A stretch of 64,000 nucleotides of DNA, from NCBI RefSeq assembly GCF_000186705.1, contig NZ_AEUE01000002.1, positions 62,001 to 126,000 on the forward strand, written 5' to 3'. Numbering within the stretch: position 1 is the stretch's first letter; the number at the start of each line of letters is the position of its first letter. The DNA is from Citromicrobium sp. JLT1363 (GTDB lineage: Bacteria > Pseudomonadota > Alphaproteobacteria > Sphingomonadales > Sphingomonadaceae). Positions 649 to 26,717 of this stretch are shown here, piece after piece. The notes under the pieces were generated by a model. That model did not search any database and had not been told where the DNA came from. It saw only the letters and a program-made list of their open reading frames with translations. The translations under genes were made by a program, and so were the position numbers.

Positions 649-2262
649 TTAGCTGCCCCGTGCATGGCGCGCGTGGAGCGCAACACGGTCGATCTCGCGC
701 ACGGGGTTCTCCGATACGGGCCTGCTGGGATGCATGTCTTCCAGCGCCGCACCTGCCTCCACCGTCTTGAGCGCGTCCAGAGTGGAGCGGAAACGGCGCA
801 GCTGCTCGCCGCTCAGCGTGGCGCGCGTGACGTAGCGGACCGACAGCGGATCGACATGGCGCCCGCCGCGATACATCTCGTAATGGAGGTGCGGCCCGGT
901 GGAGAGGCCGGTCGAGCCGACATAGCCGATGATCTGGCCACGCTTCACATATTGGCCGCGCGATACGGCCATCCGGCTCATGTGGCAGAAGCGCGTGCTC
1001 AGCCCGCCCTCGTGAGCGAGCCGCACGGCGTTGCCGCAACCGCCCGCCCGGCCTGCGCTGGTCACGCGTCCGTCGGTCGGCGCGACGATCGGCGTTCCGT
1101 GCCGCGCGCGGTAATCTACGCCTGCATGCATGCGCTTGTAGCGCAGGATCGGGTGGCGGCGCATGCCGTAGCGCGAACCGATCGGCCCCGGCACCGGTGC
1201 GACCAGGCCCGAGCGCTGCTCGCCCACGCCCGACGCTTCGTAGAACTGGCCGTCGCTGCCCCAGCGCATCAGCTGCGTGGTGGCCTCTCCATCGCGCTCG
1301 ATACCCGCATAGAGCAGGCGCCCCGCCTGCCGTTCTCCTGTTGCCGCGCGGCGATAGGAAACGATCATGTCGAAGGTGTCGCCGGCCTGCAGCGCCTTGT
1401 CGAGATCCTCGTGATCACCCAGCGCCTTGAGATAGGCCTGGATCGCGCTGGCGGGCGCGCCTGCCGCGCGCGCGGAGCGGTAGAGGCTCTCGCCCACGGT
1501 CCCGCGCAGGCGCAGCGGGGTCTCGTCGACTTCGATCGGCTCGCGGATCAGGGAGAGATTGCCATCGCTCCCCCGCGCCACGGCCAGCGAGAGATCGAAT
1601 CGCGCGCGAAACCGCAACTCGTCGAGCGGTCGCTGCCGGCCCGGATCGGTCCGGCGGCCAAGAGTAACGTCGATCTGCGTGCCCGGCTCGATCTCTTCGA
1701 GCGAGATCGCCTGCGCAACCAGCTGCGCCGCTCGTTCCGCGTCGGACTGACCCACTCCCTGCCGGGCGAGAATGCCGGCCAGGCTGTCGCTGCGGCCGAA
1801 GGTGGCGGTGCTTTCCAGCTGCGGGCGCTCCGGCGCGTCGCGCAGGGGCCGTACCAGCGCGCTCGCGGCCATCCGCGCGCCCGTATCGCCCCCGAGCGCG
1901 AGTGGCATGATCGTCTGGCTGCGGAATTCTTCGCGCGTCCGGTCGTCGAGACGCAATGCGGGCGCGGCTTCGAGAGGCGAGAAATCCGGCCAGAAGGCCA
2001 GGGCCACGGCGGTGAGCGAGAGGAAGGTGGCGGCCCCGCGGAACCAGCGCGCACTGCCGATATTCTGCGCCAGGTCGGGCGCAAGATCGGCCTGTTCCAG
2101 ACGGGCGATCCCATCGCGGGCGATTCGCGTGCCGGAGCGCGCAAAGCTGGCCAATCGCGCGTGCGCGCCGCCGGCGGCCTTGCCCACGGGTTCGCGGAAC
2201 TGCGCGGGGGCGCTGTCGTCCTGCTGGATGTCCGTCGGCTGCGCATCTTGCGTTTCCGGCAT
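649..2262 (-). CDS. M23 family peptidoglycan DD-endopeptidase, membrane anchored
   Basis: A 537-residue LytM-type metalloprotease expected to cut peptide cross-links of peptidoglycan in the periplasm. A single hydrophobic segment at about 74-94 follows a soluble N-terminus, suggesting a type II anchor. The middle part (about 150-345) resembles the SH3/LysM-like linker regions of such proteins but carries no clear motif. The M23 domain spans about 360-475: zinc-ligand motif H379-x3-D383 (HAGVD) and H458-x-H460 (HLHYE) are intact, so the enzyme should be active. It is divergent from the helicase gene, and a TTAA-N7-TTAA site lies in the shared upstream region, which would fit cell-cycle control. 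Its end is 42 bases from the hemB start. Confidence 0.9.
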   Translation of the reverse strand: MPETQDAQPTDIQQDDSAPAQFREPVGKAAGGAHARLASFARSGTRIARDGIARLEQADLAPDLAQNIGSARWFRGAATFLSLTAVALAFWPDFSPLEAAPALRLDDRTREEFRSQTIMPLALGGDTGARMAASALVRPLRDAPERPQLESTATFGRSDSLAGILARQGVGQSDAERAAQLVAQAISLEEIEPGTQIDVTLGRRTDPGRQRPLDELRFRARFDLSLAVARGSDGNLSLIREPIEVDETPLRLRGTVGESLYRSARAAGAPASAIQAYLKALGDHEDLDKALQAGDTFDMIVSYRRAATGERQAGRLLYAGIERDGEATTQLMRWGSDGQFYEASGVGEQRSGLVAPVPGPIGSRYGMRRHPILRYKRMHAGVDYRARHGTPIVAPTDGRVTSAGRAGGCGNAVRLAHEGGLSTRFCHMSRMAVSRGQYVKRGQIIGYVGSTGLSTGPHLHYEMYRGGRHVDPLSVRYVTRATLSGEQLRRFRSTLDALKTVEAGAALEDMHPSRPVSENPVREIDRVALHARHARGS

Positions 2263-14458: not shown

Positions 14459-15439
14459 TCAGATTTCGCCGCCGGTGAGCCGCTGACAGAGCAGATCGAG
14501 CTGGTCGAGAGTTTTGTAGCGGATGGTGATCGCGCCCGAACGCGGGTCCGCATCCGGCTTGATCGAAAGCGACATGCCGAGAAATTCCTCGAGGTGACGC
14601 TCGACTGCCTCGATATCGGCATTCGTCTGTTGCGGAGCGCCGTTTCCACCTGCGGCAGCGGATTTCTTCCCGGCCGGCTTCGCGCGGACCTTCTTTTCAA
14701 CCTCACGGACCGACAGGTTCTTCGACACCGCCTCCTGGGCAAGCTCTTCGGCCCGGTCGTGCCCGATCAGGGCGCGAGCATGGCCCATGCTGAGTTTGCC
14801 CAGCTCGACCAGCTGAATGACCGGCTCCGGCAAGGCGAGCAGCCTCTGAAGGTTTGCAACATGGCTCCGCGATTTGTCGACCAGCTCGGCAATGTCCGCC
14901 TGGCTCATCTCCTCCTCTTCGGAGAGATGCTGGTAGGCGCGGGCTTCCTCTATGGGATTGAGATCTTCGCGCTGGATATTCTCGATCAGCGCAATGGCCA
15001 TCACCTCACGACGGTCGAGATCGCGGACGATTGCAGGAATTTCGTGCAGATTCGCGCGCTGCGCAGCCCGCCAGCGGCGTTCGCCGGCGACCAGCTGATA
15101 CCGCCCCTTGCGCTCGAGCGGACGCACGATGATGGGCTGGATCACCCCGCGGCGCGCAATGGATTTGGCGAGTTCCTCCAGCGCGTCTTCTTCGAAGATC
15201 TTGCGCGGCTGACCGGGCAGGGGTTCGATCCGGGCAACCGGAATCGAGGCTAGCCCGCTGGCCGTCGAAGGGCCGGGCTCATTGGCTCCGCCGGTTCCCG
15301 TGCCCAGAGTCGTGCCACCTTCTGAGGGGGCGATCGATTCCTCGCGCTGGGTCTCGCCCAGCAGGGCCCCCAACCCCCGGCCCAGCTTGCGCTTGCTGCG
15401 ATCGGGCGTTGCTTCGGCTGGCACAGGCTTGGTGCTCAT
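14459..15439 (-). CDS. parB: Chromosome partitioning protein ParB
   Basis: A 326-residue CTP-dependent DNA clamp that loads at parS and spreads to form the partition complex. Seen: N-terminal LGRGLGALLGE peptide (about 17-27) that stimulates ParA, the ParB/Srx CTPase domain with GERRWRAA (the GxxRR box) and IPAIVRDL, a helix-turn-helix DNA-binding domain with MSQADIAELVDKSRSHVAN, and a C-terminal dimerisation domain. The frame is open to 15613, but ATG 15439 follows GGAAAGGA and overlaps the parA stop by 4 bases. Four parS sites lie in the three genes just upstream. Confidence 0.97.
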   Translation of the reverse strand: MSTKPVPAEATPDRSKRKLGRGLGALLGETQREESIAPSEGGTTLGTGTGGANEPGPSTASGLASIPVARIEPLPGQPRKIFEEDALEELAKSIARRGVIQPIIVRPLERKGRYQLVAGERRWRAAQRANLHEIPAIVRDLDRREVMAIALIENIQREDLNPIEEARAYQHLSEEEEMSQADIAELVDKSRSHVANLQRLLALPEPVIQLVELGKLSMGHARALIGHDRAEELAQEAVSKNLSVREVEKKVRAKPAGKKSAAAGGNGAPQQTNADIEAVERHLEEFLGMSLSIKPDADPRSGAITIRYKTLDQLDLLCQRLTGGEI

Positions 15440-16212
15440 GCTGCTTTCCTTTCCGGGGGCAGGCGACCGAGCAATTCTCTCGCCAGCGACATGTAGGCGC
15501 GGCTTCCCGCACACGAATGATCGTAAATGAGGGCAGGCAAGCCATGGCTCGGCGCCTCCGACAGGCGGACGTTGCGCGGAATGACCGTATCGAACACCAG
15601 ACCGCCCAGACATTCGCGCACGTCTTCAGCCACCTGGTCGGTCAGCCGGTTGCGACGATCGAACATGGTCAGCGTAACCCCGATAATCTTGAGCGAGGGA
15701 TTGATGCCCTGCTGAACGCGCTCCACCGTCTGCAGGAGCTGGCTGAGACCCTCGAGCGCAAAGAATTCGCATTGCAGCGGTACGAGAAGTGAGTCCGCGG
15801 CACTCAGGGCGTTCAGCGTCAGCAGGCCGAGCGAAGGCGGGCAGTCGATGAAGCAGACATCATATCCCTCGGCGTTAGCGAGCGCGTTCTTGAGGCGGTC
15901 CACCCGGTCGCTTTCCCCCACCAGCTCGACCTCGGCGCCGCTGAGGTCTTGCGTGGCCGGGATCACGTCGAGCTTCGGGATCCGCGTCGCCTGCGCGCAC
16001 TGGGCGGCGGTGGCCTCGTCCATCAGCATGTCATAGACGGAATAGTCGCGGTCGTGACTGGGAATACCCAGACCCGTGGAGGCGTTGCCCTGCGGGTCCA
16101 TGTCCACCAGCAATGTGCGCCAGCCCGTCGCCGCGATGGCGGTTGCGATGTTGATCGCGGTGGTCGTCTTGCCGACCCCGCCCTTCTGATTGGCGATCGC
16201 AATGCAAATCAT
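15436..16212 (-). CDS. parA: Chromosome partitioning ATPase ParA
   Basis: A 258-residue deviant Walker ATPase that forms the nucleoid-bound gradient moving ParB-parS complexes. The deviant Walker A KGGVGKTT is at 10-17 with the signature Lys10, Walker A' is in LLVDMDPQGN, and Walker B in CFIDCPPSLG. It overlaps rsmG upstream and parB downstream by 4 bases each, so rsmG-parA-parB is probably one translationally coupled unit, the order known in Caulobacter and most alphaproteobacteria. Confidence 0.97.
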   Translation of the reverse strand: MICIAIANQKGGVGKTTTAINIATAIAATGWRTLLVDMDPQGNASTGLGIPSHDRDYSVYDMLMDEATAAQCAQATRIPKLDVIPATQDLSGAEVELVGESDRVDRLKNALANAEGYDVCFIDCPPSLGLLTLNALSAADSLLVPLQCEFFALEGLSQLLQTVERVQQGINPSLKIIGVTLTMFDRRNRLTDQVAEDVRECLGGLVFDTVIPRNVRLSEAPSHGLPALIYDHSCAGSRAYMSLARELLGRLPPERKAA

Positions 16213-16847
16213 CTGCGGCTCCCGACTTTGGGTCGGCCCGCGCCGACGAGGATGGCAGCGTCCCGGCTAGTGACCGATTGTTTCACGTGAAACATGCTGC
16301 GCAGCGGAGAATCAAGCTCGTCCCTTTCCTGCGCTGCCGACCGCCCCTTGGGCAAGACCCATGTCGTGTCGGCAGTGGAAAAGCGGGCGGACAATCTGAG
16401 TAGTTCGCCCAGGGGAGCGAAAGCACGTGCGCTAATCACCGACGCGTCGAAGGTGTCGATCGCCTGCAAGCGCGCACCCAGAACACGACAATTATTCAAG
16501 CCAAGGCTGGCAATGATGGATTCAAGCCACTCGACCCGTCGCTTGCGCGATTCGACGAGAAAATGCGGGAGGTCGGGCCGCATGATCGCCGTCACCACGC
16601 CCGGGAGACCGGCGCCGGTCCCCAGGTCCAGCCAGGGCCCCGGTGTTTCACGTGGAACACAATCGAGCAACTGCGCGCTATCCGCGAAGTGGCGCTGCCA
16701 GAGGGTTTCGACTGTCGAGCGTGCGATCAGGTTCTGGTTCTTCGATTCAGCAAGCAGCGCTTCTCCGAAGCGCTCCATCTTGGCCAAGGCCTCTGGCGAA
16801 CACCGTTCCGCAACATAGGCGCGTGCCGCGTCTTCGCTATCGATCAT
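16209..16847 (-). CDS. rsmG: 16S rRNA (guanine-527-N7)-methyltransferase RsmG
   Basis: A 212-residue SAM-dependent methyltransferase that modifies G527 in the 530 loop of 16S rRNA. The SAM-binding motif is [13 protein letters not shown] (72-84); [13 protein letters not shown] and WVLPKGRSA follow as in the family. It overlaps mnmG by 4 bases upstream and parA by 4 bases downstream. Two parS palindromes lie inside it: one codes VPRET near residue 65, the other codes the MFHVKQ peptide near residue 186. Confidence 0.96.
16279..16294. other. parS centromere site 1 (perfect 16-mer)
   Basis: TGTTTCACGTGAAACA is a perfect palindrome and a full match to the bacterial parS consensus TGTTNCACGTGAAACA. 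It lies near the 3' end of rsmG, 67 bases upstream of the parA start codon. Confidence 0.95.
16644..16659. other. parS centromere site 2
   Basis: TGTTTCACGTGGAACA, read on the other strand TGTTCCACGTGAAACA, matches the consensus with the allowed variable base. Inside rsmG. Confidence 0.9.
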
Positions 16848-18697
16848 GCCGCCGCCACATGTTTCCGGGCATGGACGAGCAGCGCGGCAAGCGCCGCAGG
16901 CGTTATGCCCGGTACCCGGCCCGCCTGAGCCAAGCTCTGGGGCCGGGTGCGGGACAAGCGTTCCACCATCTCGTTCGAGAGGCCGGGCACTTCTTGAAAG
17001 GGAAAATCAGGCTTCAAAGCGATCTTCTCGTTTGCACGCAGTTCCTTCAGCTCCGCCTCGTGCCGCGCGACGTATGGGGCATAGTGCAGGTCCTCGGCTA
17101 CCTCCGAATGCAAGCCATGCTCCGTTTCACGTGGAACAAGACCGGCCTCGGCCAGGCGCGGCAAATCGATGCCGGGATATCGGGTCCAATCCCCGAGCGG
17201 TTGGCGGCCCGCATCGTCCGTTGCGGCAAAGCCCAACATCCGCATTTCGGAAGGAGAGCGCTCCCGGCCCAGGGCCAGCTGCAGCGCTTCACGTGCCTCT
17301 TCACGCGCCTCGAACCGACGTCGCCGTCCTTCGGACACGCATCCCGCCTGGATTGCCAGCGGCGTGAGCCGGGAGGGAGCATTGTTGGCGCGCAACCGGA
17401 GCCGGTACTCCGCCCGAGCCGTCAACATGCGATAGGGTTCGCTGACACCGTGCAGGGTGAGATCGTCGACCATAACAGCCATGTAGCTATTCGCCCGATC
17501 CAGGCCTGGCTCATCCCGCCCGGCAATACGGCACGCGGCATGGAGGCCGGCGACAAGGCCCTGCGCCGCAGCCTCTTCATAACCTGTCGTCCCGTTTATC
17601 TGTCCCGCGCAATAGAGGCCTTCGAGGTCCTTCATTTGCAGCGAACGGTCCAAGGAACGCGGATCTACGTGGTCGTATTCGACGGCATAGCCCGGCTCCG
17701 CCACCCGGACCTGCTCAAGCCCCTCGATGGCCCGCAGGAAAGCCTCCTGCACATCCACGGGCAGCGAGGTGCTGATCCCGTTGGGATAGACGAGCGGCGT
17801 GTCGAGCCCCTCGGGCTCAAGAAATATCTGGTGTCCGTCACGGTCGCCGAAACGATCGATCTTGTCCTCGATCGACGGGCAATATCTGGGGCCCTGCGCA
17901 TCGATAGCGCCCGAATAGAGTGGCGAACGGGAAAGGTTGGCGCGGATGATCTCGTGAACGCGACCATTGGTGCGCGTCATCGCGCAAAACACCTGCGGGT
18001 TGACGCGTTCCGTTGACAGGGGCGACATGGTCCACTCGTCAGGGTCCGATGGCTGGACCGCCAGCCGGGCCCAATCGATCGTCCGCCCATCCAACCGAGG
18101 CGGGGTGCCCGTCTTCAAGCGCGCCAGCGGCAGCGAAGCATCCCGCAATTGCCCAGCCAGTGTCGCAGCGGCGCCCTCTGCAATACGGCCCCCTTCGAAG
18201 CGTTCCTCTCCGCGAAAAAGCACGCCGCCAAGAAACGTCCCGGTGCACAACACCGCAGCATCGCACGCCAGCTGCATGCCATCTGCGAGCGAGACTCCGC
18301 GAACCTTGCCCCCCTCGATCCGAAGGCCCGCAACCTCGCCTTCGATAACCTCGAGAGTGGGTTCACTCGCTACGCGCTCGCGCACGGCTGCGCCGAACAA
18401 ACGTCGATCTGCCTGAACTCTCGGACCCCAGACCGCGCTTCCCTTGGAGCGATTGAGCATTCGGTAATGGATCGCGCCCGCATCCGCTGCAATGCCGAGC
18501 AGGCCATCGAATGCATCGACCTCGCGCACGAGGTGCCCCTTGCCCAAACCGCCGATCGCCGGGTTGCAGCTCATCGCCCCAATCTTGGTGGCGTCCATGG
18601 TGACCAGTGCCACATGCAGGTCCATGCGCGCGGCGACACAGGCCGCCTCGACGCCGGCATGCCCGCCGCCGATGACTATTATCGGAAAGTGCCGCAT
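16844..18697 (-). CDS. mnmG: tRNA uridine-5-carboxymethylaminomethyl modification enzyme MnmG
   Basis: A 617-residue FAD enzyme that, with MnmE, modifies U34 of tRNAs reading split codon boxes. The N-terminal FAD motif is [13 protein letters not shown]; the [18 protein letters not shown] and [19 protein letters not shown] signatures are present, and the C-terminal helical domain ends at 617. The frame is open a further 7 codons, but ATG 18697 gives the standard start. Partner gene mnmE is the next gene upstream on the same strand, with a parS site in the 73-base gap. One near-parS site is inside the gene. Confidence 0.97.
17123..17138. other. parS-like site 3 (one mismatch)
   Basis: CGTTTCACGTGGAACA is, on the other strand, TGTTCCACGTGAAACG: one mismatch at the last position of TGTTNCACGTGAAACA. 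It lies inside mnmG and again codes VPRET. Binding is probable but may be weaker. Confidence 0.75.
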
Positions 18698-18742: not shown

Positions 18743-18758
18743 TGTTCCACGTGAAACA
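18743..18758. other. parS centromere site 4 (intergenic)
   Basis: TGTTCCACGTGAAACA fully matches the consensus. It is the only one of the four in a gap, between the mnmE stop (18771) and the mnmG start (18697). Confidence 0.95.
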
Positions 18759-23950: not shown

Positions 23951-24982
23951 CTATGCCCCGCGCTGCCAATCACGAACCGTCGCCAACGCCCGTTCGACAT
24001 GCGCGATGGGCGTGCGCCGGTCGATTCCGTGGCCCAGATTGAACACATGCGGCCGCCCCGAGAAGGCTTCGAGAATCGTCAGGATACGCGGCTCCAGCCG
24101 GTCCGATCCGGCCAGCAGCAACAGCGGATCTAGATTGCCCTGAACGGGCATGCCTTCGGGCAGGACGGAGTGAGCCCAGGCAGGGTCTACCGTTTCGTCC
24201 ACCCCGACCGCGTCCACACCGGTCTGGCGAGCATAGACCGGCAGTTTCTCCCCCGCGCCCTTGGGGAAACCGATGATCGGCGTATCGGGATGCGATTCCT
24301 TCAAGGCTGCAACGATCGCCGCATTGGGCGCGATGACCCAGCGATCGAACTCGTCCGGGGCAAGGCTGCCCGCCCAGCTGTCGAACAGCTGCACCGCCTC
24401 TGCCCCCGCATCGATCTGGCCGCGCAGATAGGAGATCGTGTGGTCGCCCACCGCGGTGAGGATGGCGGCGAGCATATCGGGATCGCGGTAGGCCATGGCC
24501 CGCGCGTCGTGCTGATCCCGGCTCCCTTCGCCCGCAATCATGTAAGTCGCCACGGTCCACGGGCTGCCTGCAAAGCCCAGCATGGTCACATCTTCGACCA
24601 GCTGCGCCCTGCACCGCCGCACCGTTTCGTAGACCGGATCGAAGCGGGTGGTATCCGCCGTCAGATCACCGAGGCTGGCGTCCACCAGCGGGGGAGAAAG
24701 CTTCGGCCCCTCCCCTGCGAGAAACTCGAGGTGCTGGCCCATGGCATGCGGAACGATCAGGATGTCGGAGAACAGGATCGCGCCATCGAACCCGAAGCGC
24801 CGGATCGGTTGAAGGGTGACCTCGCACGCAGCCTCGCTGTCGTACACCAGATCGAGGAACCCGCCCTTGTCCGCGCGCAACTCGCGGTATTCGGGCAGGT
24901 AACGCCCCGCCTGGCGCATGAACCAGACGGGCGGGGTCGCGGGCAGAGCACCGCGCAGGCAATCGAGAAGTGGGCCGGGCAT
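23951..24982 (-). CDS. hemE: Uroporphyrinogen decarboxylase
   Basis: A 343-residue cytosolic enzyme removing four acetate carboxyls from uroporphyrinogen III. Conserved PPVWFMRQAGRYLPEYR (16-33) and the active-site region DGAILFSDIL are intact. Its start abuts the AT-rich side of the probable replication origin, the same position hemE has beside Cori in Caulobacter. Confidence 0.97.
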   Translation of the reverse strand: MPGPLLDCLRGALPATPPVWFMRQAGRYLPEYRELRADKGGFLDLVYDSEAACEVTLQPIRRFGFDGAILFSDILIVPHAMGQHLEFLAGEGPKLSPPLVDASLGDLTADTTRFDPVYETVRRCRAQLVEDVTMLGFAGSPWTVATYMIAGEGSRDQHDARAMAYRDPDMLAAILTAVGDHTISYLRGQIDAGAEAVQLFDSWAGSLAPDEFDRWVIAPNAAIVAALKESHPDTPIIGFPKGAGEKLPVYARQTGVDAVGVDETVDPAWAHSVLPEGMPVQGNLDPLLLLAGSDRLEPRILTILEAFSGRPHVFNLGHGIDRRTPIAHVERALATVRDWQRGA

Positions 24983-25296
24983 GTCTCTAACTAACCTAAT
25001 AAATTATATTAGTAATAGATGGATGATAGAAGTTGGGCCTGTGGACAGGGGTGAAAACCCTGTCCTGCACATGGCCTGCGAAAAACTCGGACGCGTCCTC
25101 CACCATCCGACTCGCCGAATATCCATCGTCAAACGGAACTTATCCCCCTTCTGAGTCGGGTGTCGATAAGCACGCCATCTGTGGGCAGACTCCCTGCGCA
25201 AATCCGGCTCGCAATGTTCACGATCTGCGTGCCGGACTTGTCCTTGCATCAGTGAAGTGGTTTATCCCGGCATCTGTCCACAACCCGGATCGCACC
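24983..25296. other. Probable chromosomal replication origin (oriC), gene-free
   Basis: This 314-base gap between hemE and the PPDK-regulator gene matches the Caulobacter origin by gene order. It holds an AT-rich tract at 24985-25030, unusual for the window, with CTAATA/TATTAG (24996-25012). A perfect 8-bp inverted repeat GGACAGGG/CCCTGTCC spans 25043-25065. DnaA-box-like 9-mers relative to TTATCCACA: 25161-25169 (minus, TTATCGACA, one mismatch), 25040-25048 (minus, CTGTCCACA, two), 25140-25148 (TTATCCCCC, two), 25274-25282 (CTGTCCACA, two). GANTC sites are at 25109, 25153 and 25188. Genes on both sides point away from it. Origin function is inference. Confidence 0.75.
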
Positions 25297-26133
25297 TTGG
25301 CGCGCACGCATCTGCATCTCTTTTCCGATTCGACCGGCGAAACGCTGCAGATGGTCGCGAATGCAGCCCTTGCCCAGTTCGAAGGCGTGGACGTCGTCCG
25401 CCATTTCTGGCCCATGGTCCGCTCGCGCCAGCATCTGGACCGCATCGTTCCCGAACTGGAAAAGATGCCGGGCCTGATTCTCTACACGCTGGTGAACGAA
25501 GAAACGCGCAAGGCCCTGGAAGAGAAATGCCGCCAGCTTGCACTGCCCGCGGTGGATGCGCTGGGCGAAGTGACCGCGGTGCTCGAAACGCAGTTTGGCC
25601 AGGAAGCGCACGGGCGCCCCGGACGCCAGCACCGTATGGACGACGCGTATTTCCGGCGGGTCGATGCCATTCACTACACGATCGCGCATGACGACGGCGT
25701 GGGCAGCGAACAGTGGCACAAGGCCGACATCGTCCTCGCCGGAGTTTCGCGCACCTCGAAAACACCCACAAGCATCTATCTCGCCAACCGGGGCTACAAG
25801 ACGGCCAATATCCCGCTGGTCATGGAAAGCCCCCCGCCCCCGGTTCTGTTCGAACTGAACGGGCCGCTGGTCGTCGGGCTGACCACCGCGCCGGAGCGGC
25901 TGGTGCAGATCCGCCGCAACCGGCTGCTGACGCTGAACGAGGAATCGCAAACCAGCTATGCCGAGCATGAGCGGGTGGAAGAGGAAATCCGGTTCGCACG
26001 GCGCATGTTCGCCGACAATAACTGGCCGGTCATCGACGTGACCCGCCGATCCATCGAGGAAACGGCTGCGGCGATCATCAAGCTGATGAACGATCACAAG
26101 ATGCGCGCCAAGCCGCAGGAGAAGCCGATATGA
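25297..26133 (+). CDS. Pyruvate, phosphate dikinase / PEP synthase regulatory protein (DUF299)
   Basis: A 278-residue bifunctional kinase/pyrophosphorylase controlling PPDK or PEP synthase by ADP-dependent phosphorylation and phosphate-dependent reversal. Motifs: HLHLFSDSTGETL at the N-terminus and P-loop-like GVSRTSKTPTS. Family members normally begin just before HLHL, which TTG 25297 reproduces; the frame is open to 25033, and GTG 25252 is another option but would run through a DnaA-box-like site. It is the RP001-type gene that flanks oriC in alphaproteobacteria. The stop overlaps maf by 4 bases. Confidence 0.9.
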   Translation: MARTHLHLFSDSTGETLQMVANAALAQFEGVDVVRHFWPMVRSRQHLDRIVPELEKMPGLILYTLVNEETRKALEEKCRQLALPAVDALGEVTAVLETQFGQEAHGRPGRQHRMDDAYFRRVDAIHYTIAHDDGVGSEQWHKADIVLAGVSRTSKTPTSIYLANRGYKTANIPLVMESPPPPVLFELNGPLVVGLTTAPERLVQIRRNRLLTLNEESQTSYAEHERVEEEIRFARRMFADNNWPVIDVTRRSIEETAAAIIKLMNDHKMRAKPQEKPI

Positions 26134-26717
26134 GCCTCATCCTCGCCTCGAACAGCGCTTCTCGCCGCGCGATGCTGCAGGCTGCCGGTGTAGAGGTCGA
26201 CTGCGTCGGCGCGGACGTGGACGAACGCGCGCTGGAAGCGGAAATGGCAGACGCCCCGCCGGCCGAGATCGCGCAGGCGCTTGCCGCGGCGAAGGCCAGC
26301 GCGGTTTCGGCCGACCATCCCGACAGGCTCGTGCTTGGTGGAGACAGCCTGGTGGTGGTCGACGGCAAACGTTTCGACAAGCCCGCCAGCCGCGACGAGG
26401 CGGTCGATCACCTGCGATTCTTCTCGGGCAAGGTGATGCATCTGCACAGCGCAGCGGCACTTGCCAGCGGCGGCCGTGTCGTCTGGCTGGGCGAAGATGC
26501 CGCAGCGTTGCACGTGCGCGATCTGGGCGAGGATTTCATCGCGGCCTATCTCGCCGCCGAGTGGCCCGAGGTCGGGCAGACGGTTGGCGTCTTCCGGATC
26601 GAGGCGATGGGCGTGCAGCTGTTCGATCGCATCTTCGGCGACCATTTCACGATCCTGGGCATGCCTCTGCTGCAAGTGCTGGGCGCGCTGCGAGAGCAGG
26701 GCGTCATCCCTGCATGA
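26130..26717 (+). CDS. maf: Maf family nucleoside triphosphate pyrophosphatase
   Basis: A 195-residue house-cleaning pyrophosphatase for non-canonical NTPs. The ILASNSASRRAML signature is at residues 4-16, and LVLGGDSLVVVDGKRFDKP carries the catalytic Asp region. It overlaps both neighbours by 4 bases, in the conserved block of origin-side genes. Confidence 0.94.
   Translation: MSLILASNSASRRAMLQAAGVEVDCVGADVDERALEAEMADAPPAEIAQALAAAKASAVSADHPDRLVLGGDSLVVVDGKRFDKPASRDEAVDHLRFFSGKVMHLHSAAALASGGRVVWLGEDAAALHVRDLGEDFIAAYLAAEWPEVGQTVGVFRIEAMGVQLFDRIFGDHFTILGMPLLQVLGALREQGVIPA

Follow-up and report, generated by a model that had tools for sequence, protein, structure and literature searches.

A chromosomal replication origin predicted in the hemE/PPSR intergenic gap of Citromicrobium sp. 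JLT1363

The gap at positions 24983–25296 of a 64,000-nt stretch of the Citromicrobium sp. JLT1363 genome (the whole stretch analysed, hereafter the window) is almost certainly the DnaA-dependent chromosomal oriC of this Citromicrobium-like sphingomonad. It combines divergent hemE/COG1806 neighbours, an AT-rich element, a cluster of DnaA boxes, parS sites close by, a change of sign in GC skew and, in relatives, a position opposite the dif-like site. A preliminary description of the sequence had already proposed oriC here, and that proposal is now supported by the skew sign change, the nearby parS sites and the dif-opposite position in six relatives, which agree with one another without resting on the motif content of the gap. 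The origin is of a kind already known, its position beside hemE having been reported for Sphingomonadaceae. The Caulobacter and Rickettsia origins are described at the same hemE/COG1806 position (PMC1914354), as is the oriC of Sphingopyxis and of most Sphingomonadaceae held in DoriC (PMC4741004). The assignment would fix coordinate zero of the Citromicrobium sp. JLT1363 genome, and it lends weight to the hemE/PPSR rule for a GC-rich group with weak skew, where dnaA is no guide. The features of the locus, in window coordinates, are as follows.

14459–15613, minus strand: parB (PF02195, PF17762, PF23552)
15436–16212, minus strand: parA (PF13614, 205.5 bits; PF01656)
16279–16294, unstranded: perfect parS, from the motif scan
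16644–16659, unstranded: parS with 1 mismatch, from the motif scan
17123–17138, unstranded: parS-like site with 2 mismatches, from the motif scan
18743–18758, unstranded: parS with 1 mismatch, from the motif scan
23951–24982, minus strand: hemE, uroporphyrinogen decarboxylase (TIGR01464, 385.9 bits, above cut-off)
24983–25296, unstranded: gap between the divergent hemE and PPSR genes, assigned with high confidence as oriC
24983–25031, unstranded: AT-rich, candidate DNA-unwinding element
25032–25036, plus strand: conserved GTTGG, flanked by the AT-rich tract and the left DnaA box; 67 of 79 aligned gaps match exactly
25040–25048, minus strand: left DnaA box CTGTCCACA, 2 mismatches, adjoining the AT-rich tract
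25109–25113, unstranded: GANTC (CcrM-type), invariant in 79 of 79 aligned gaps
25140–25148, plus strand: weak DnaA box TTATCCCCC, 2 mismatches, partly conserved
25153–25157, unstranded: GANTC, poorly kept (2 of 79 aligned gaps)
25161–25169, minus strand: DnaA box TTATCGACA, 1 mismatch
25188–25192, unstranded: GANTC, poorly kept (4 of 79 aligned gaps)
25237–25265, plus strand: right element CTTGTC-N14-GTGGTTTAT, PPSR promoter or protein site
25274–25282, plus strand: right DnaA box CTGTCCACA, 2 mismatches, an exact inverted 9-bp copy of the left box
25297–26133, plus strand: PPSR gene (PPDK/PEP synthase regulator; COG1806; NF003742, 332.8 bits, above cut-off)

The hemE gene (minus strand) and the PPSR gene (plus strand, with a TTG start codon at 25297) diverge from exactly 314 bp of gene-free sequence, the length given in the preliminary description. 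A family profile search also bore out the gene order described there, in which the PPSR gene is followed by maf, aroE, coaE and dnaQ; maf and aroE, like hemJ on the other side, are family matches scoring under their curated cut-offs. To the left of the gap lie hemJ and rho and, further out, mnmE and mnmG, beyond which a single ORF, presumably rsmG judging from its place, is followed by parA and parB. Since the mechanical parB ORF overlaps parA, the true parB start is probably further inside.

The divergent hemE/PPSR pair was present in 78 of the loci from 80 relatives, the remaining two being cut by contig ends, and was separated in those loci by 291–366 bp. These loci were the best 80 of 202 relatives, so the 79 aligned gaps considered below (the window and 78 loci, with L022 and L073 omitted because their contigs end before hemE) represent close relatives. 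The 79 rows are not independent of one another, L002 coming from nearly the same genome and other rows looking like near-duplicates; within the best 80 of 202, the closest locus is that of this Citromicrobium MAG, L002, whose gap is 99% identical. The same divergent pair was found in 60 of 60 further genomes, with gaps of 298–1067 bp. This set comprised 20 genomes of the same family, 20 of the order outside the family and 20 of the class outside the order, hand-picked among PF03618-positive genomes (78 of 79 in the order and 79 of 114 in the class, some overlapping); the 35 of 114 class genomes without a PF03618 match lie outside the divergent-pair sample, and L212, among the 20 same-family genomes, shares its gap with row L015. 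Over the 79 rows, identity reaches 90% or more in 70 of the 314 columns; for two of these columns the reason is an alignment gap in most relatives. The conserved blocks are GTTGGnCCTGTGGA at 25032–25045, CGANTC at 25108–25113, CTTGTC at 25237–25242, GTGGTTTAT at 25257–25265 and a TCCAC block ending at 25281.

Within the gap, the 30-bp stretch at 24988 is 87% AT and is the most AT-rich of the 63,971 such stretches in the window; it lies in the AT-rich tract noted earlier. The plus strand has no C over the 41 nt at 24997–25037, and the next-longest such run in the window is 20 nt. The interval 24983–25031 is a probable DNA-unwinding element. When DnaA-box-like 9-mers were scored by their mismatches to the E. 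coli-type box TTATCCACA, the gap was confirmed to hold one 9-mer with one mismatch and three with two, as previously counted, and no perfect box. At least four boxes per 314 bp occur only here in the 64-kb window, all such intervals starting at 24969–25040; a lone one-mismatch box is unremarkable, being present in 942 of 63,687 intervals. Across the 79 gaps, boxes with at most two mismatches averaged 4.1 per gap versus 0.75 in Markov sequences; a box with at most one mismatch was present in 64 of 79 gaps and a perfect box in 4 of 79. The core of the left box, TGTGGA on the plus strand, is retained in 78 of 79 aligned gaps, and the TCCACA of the right box in 66 of 79. In many relatives the left box differs, reading TGTGGAT or TGTGGAA.

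The earlier remark that the weak boxes might point to lineage-specific DnaA sites found no support. Domain IV of DnaA is ordinary by Pfam (PF08299, 102 bits, cut-off 31.5), and special DnaA sites are unneeded because weak boxes are common to the relatives, as they are in Caulobacter, whose Cori boxes are described as weak (PMC4468827). In the whole assembly, TTATCCACA with at most one mismatch occurs 160 times and its reversed control 216 times, which means no genome-wide enrichment of E. coli-type boxes.

Evidence for the position of the origin comes from the chromosome at large. On the window's own contig, all 4 stretches left of the gap had negative GC skew and all 9 stretches right of it positive skew (sampled values −0.0047 and +0.0160), the sample consisting of eleven 20-kb stretches of that contig and two parts of the window, in an assembly of 26 contigs. 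The GC-skew check named in the preliminary description thereby gave a sampled sign change at the gap, with all 13 stretches in agreement. Within the window alone, the minimum of cumulative skew falls near 36 kb, not 25 kb, so that the window alone would not place the skew switch exactly. Skew is also weak in the relative G042, where 8-kb samples, with arm means worked out by hand, averaged +0.011 for one arm and −0.006 for the other; on each arm, 7 of the 10 samples had the sign expected.

The parS sites lie 6.2–8.7 kb from the gap, and the assembly holds no others within two mismatches. Among six single-contig relatives, three had parS with at most one mismatch, never more than 11 kb from the locus, and in the other three none was found at that threshold. 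Furthermore, all six single-contig relatives place hemE/PPSR 0.471–0.495 of the chromosome from their sole dif-like site and dnaA 0.152–0.346 from it; therefore, the hemE/PPSR gap, and not dnaA, lies opposite the dif-like site. The probability of 4e-5 obtained for this comparison treats the six genomes as independent. The dif-like sites were located with a third pattern, relaxed after the match in the own genome. It matched once per genome in all 7, and its reversed control matched nowhere; a first pattern had matched 0 of 7 genomes and a second only the own genome, in 2 places. In the own genome, the sole match to the dif pattern within two mismatches in the assembly is ATAATATATATTATGTAA at C21:125731–125748, a probable dif site.

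The gap could in principle be nothing more than the divergent promoter region of hemE and PPSR, with replication starting elsewhere, for instance near dnaA. Both genes need promoters here, and the right element could be one of them, though the promoter scan was negative. This reading is nevertheless very improbable, given that parS lies near hemE/PPSR, that dnaA is not opposite the dif-like site in the six relatives, and that the gap and dnaA, both on this contig, are 328 kb apart, with sampled skew still positive up to 400 kb. In Sphingomonadales, dnaA is described as not conserved near the origin (PMC8116508).

If the gap is oriC, as we propose, initiation can be outlined by analogy with known bacterial origins, from which the DnaA, melting, helicase and ParB steps are taken; the location of the gap, its conservation and its agreement with skew, parS and dif-like sites are direct observations. 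DnaA would first bind the box at 25040, next to the AT-rich tract, together with the gap's weaker boxes as far as the inverted one at 25274. The DnaA oligomer would then extend into the AT-rich, C-free tract at 24983–25037 and melt it, allowing the helicase to be loaded and forks to depart both ways, and the new origins would be captured via ParB on the parS sites 6–9 kb off.

The right element, like the GANTC site at 25109, may be a new detail of this origin region. CTTGTC is found in 73 of 79 aligned gaps and GTGGTTTAT in 75 of 79; 69 of 79 rows match the whole CTTGTC-N14-GTGGTTTAT exactly, and no other spacer of 8–19 occurs. Exact copies were present in 6 of the 20 same-family genomes, the other 14 being at best four mismatches away, and GTGGTTTAT was absent from all 40 gaps outside the family, one of which had ATGGTTTAT. 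The likeliest reading, to which we give somewhat better than even credence, is that the element is simply the −35/−10 promoter of PPSR and not a part of the origin. Its fixed spacing yields TTGTC-N17-TTTAT-like hexamers, and in the rows inspected it stands shortly upstream of PPSR and is oriented toward it. Similar conservation is seen upstream of ctrA in 13 of 13 regions, so promoter-region sequence can be this conserved here. Against the promoter reading, the −10 part is a poor consensus, the GTGG outside the hexamers is as conserved as the bases inside them, and the 14 of 20 same-family genomes that are at least four mismatches off nonetheless keep PPSR. A scan for sigma-70 promoters and terminators found none, and Rfam gave no match at gathering scores in 24000–26500.

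The conserved sequence upstream of the ctrA-like gene is a very conserved block, TTAACCTTTTC ... GTGGTTAAT, which all 13 regions examined have 78–109 nt upstream of the LLIED codon; 12 of these regions were picked because they carry the block, and the own gene alone is family-named (NF045991). In L172, the block is located upstream of the CtrA ORF at 1227–1994 (minus strand). A resemblance between the right element and this block, written as CTTTTC-N14-GTGGTTAAT, was set aside, a reversed control being about as frequent at two mismatches; since the reversed control is equally frequent, the tally of 126 of 149 for the pattern shared by the right element and the ctrA block, among the matches listed, is uninformative.

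Next to the left box, the perfect 8-bp inverted repeat of the preliminary description does exist (25043–25050 and 25058–25065, separated by a 7-nt loop), but it is not conserved. Perfect arms, a short loop and a place adjoining the left box would suit a functional origin hairpin at 25043–25065. Such a role is nonetheless hardly credible: only 1 of 79 homologous gaps, that of this genome, carries the repeat, and the 99%-identical L002 differs at one arm base. For these same reasons the repeat is probably a product of chance, and the hairpin was rejected as a part of the origin.

The predicted origin resembles Cori of Caulobacter crescentus in its flanking genes, AT-rich region, weak DnaA boxes and parS within about 8 kb (PMC1914354, PMC4468827), as well as in having several GANTC sites (PMC3973325). 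Unlike Cori, it does not contain the CtrA site TTAA-N7-TTAA, which was found in 0 of 79 gaps as an exact match and in 6 of 79 with one mismatch, about the chance level. Control by CtrA through sites in the origin was therefore rejected, there being no exact site in the 79 gaps. The absence of CtrA sites is not new: they are described as not seen in most other alphaproteobacterial origins (PMC4468827), and they are reported in several Rickettsiales origins (PMC1914354). The oriC regions near hemE in Sphingopyxis and Sphingomonadaceae, which are Ori-Finder/DoriC predictions, share the gene neighbourhood found here and are described as having a DNA-unwinding element and conserved DnaA boxes (PMC4741004), a likeness at the level of these descriptions.

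As in the Bacillus-type BUS, a box adjoins a C-free AT-rich tract. Under the definition of DnaA-trios in PMC8287927, the BUS criterion was at least three trios within 16 bp of a DnaA box. In the window, 8 of 10 trinucleotides in one register after 12 nt are trios, the longest consecutive run being 2. Over the 79 gaps, trio runs were shorter than in shuffles (1.72 versus 2.11), runs of at least three occurred in 15% of gaps versus 29% of shuffles, and the register count was 6.24 versus 5.32. DnaA-trios are not clearly present.

With respect to methylation, the three GANTC sites noted earlier are all present, but conservation holds for 25109 only and fails for 25153 and 25188. Under three alignment modes, the 25109 site was kept in 79, 79 and 78 of 79 rows, at 62–65 nt from the left-box core in 78 of 79 and at 146–149 nt from GTGGTTTAT in 79 of 79. 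The three sites of the window were rejected as a cluster, their count not being rare: at least three GANTC occur in 2.6% of 314-bp intervals in 284 kb of the own genome and in 7.7% of the low-GC ones.

Among the 79 rows, the gaps hold a mean of 5.1 GANTC versus 1.4 in first-order Markov sequences, and GANTC is the commonest of sixteen palindromic pentamers of the same form, the next reaching 2.2. Outside the gap, the same loci have 0.49 per interval, and another interval equals the count of the gap in 11 of 76 loci. The gap of G042 has 7 GANTC, and intervals sampled over 160 kb reach 4 at most. Against low-GC intervals, the stricter control, the enrichment shrinks: their mean is 0.87 in the own genome, with a maximum of 5, and 1.06 in G042, with a maximum of 3. 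The mean per gap was 4.7 versus 1.6 expected in the 20 same-family genomes, 2.6 versus 1.4 in the 20 of the order outside the family, and 2.65 versus 2.3 in the 20 of the class outside the order. The own lineage of the window has just 2–3 GANTC per gap, the window itself having 3; what the own genome shares with its relatives is therefore the one invariant site, not the cluster.

The invariant 25109 site and the GANTC enrichment in close relatives may be a new detail; a literature search covering part of the field found no report of GANTC at sphingomonad origins. Since these two features occur in origins without CtrA sites, sphingomonads may couple the firing of the origin to methylation and not to CtrA binding. 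The concentration of a methylation motif in the close relatives (5.1 versus 0.49 GANTC) recalls the GATC cluster of E. coli oriC, the target of Dam and SeqA, from which the window differs in having only 3 GANTC. We know of no counterpart of SeqA for GANTC. The own genome encodes a relative of CcrM (NF050803, E 1.8e-185, 616 bits; curated cut-off 830).

A full scheme along these lines is a speculation to which we attach little probability. The main DnaA-dependent origin of sphingomonads would be licensed by CcrM through the GANTC cluster and the never-lost 25109 site; after firing, GANTC would be hemimethylated and the origin held back until CcrM remethylates it late in the cycle, which would parallel Dam/SeqA in an origin that lacks CtrA sites. 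A reader or another regulator would bind the clade-specific CTTGTC-N14-GTGGTTTAT, and the Citromicrobium lineage would have reduced the cluster to the essential site. GANTC is described as over-represented more than 1.5-fold in intergenic regions, with several sites in Cori, and over-expressed CcrM as raising chromosome number; yet CcrM is not required for the control of initiation in Caulobacter (PMC3973325). For the secondary origin of Agrobacterium, control by methylation has been proposed (PMC11514494).

Perfect TTATCCACA boxes number two in the whole assembly, and one of them precedes the ccrM-like gene, at L221:1304–1312 (C20:94733–94741), 56 bp upstream of its mechanical start. Its placement hints that ccrM may be under DnaA control.
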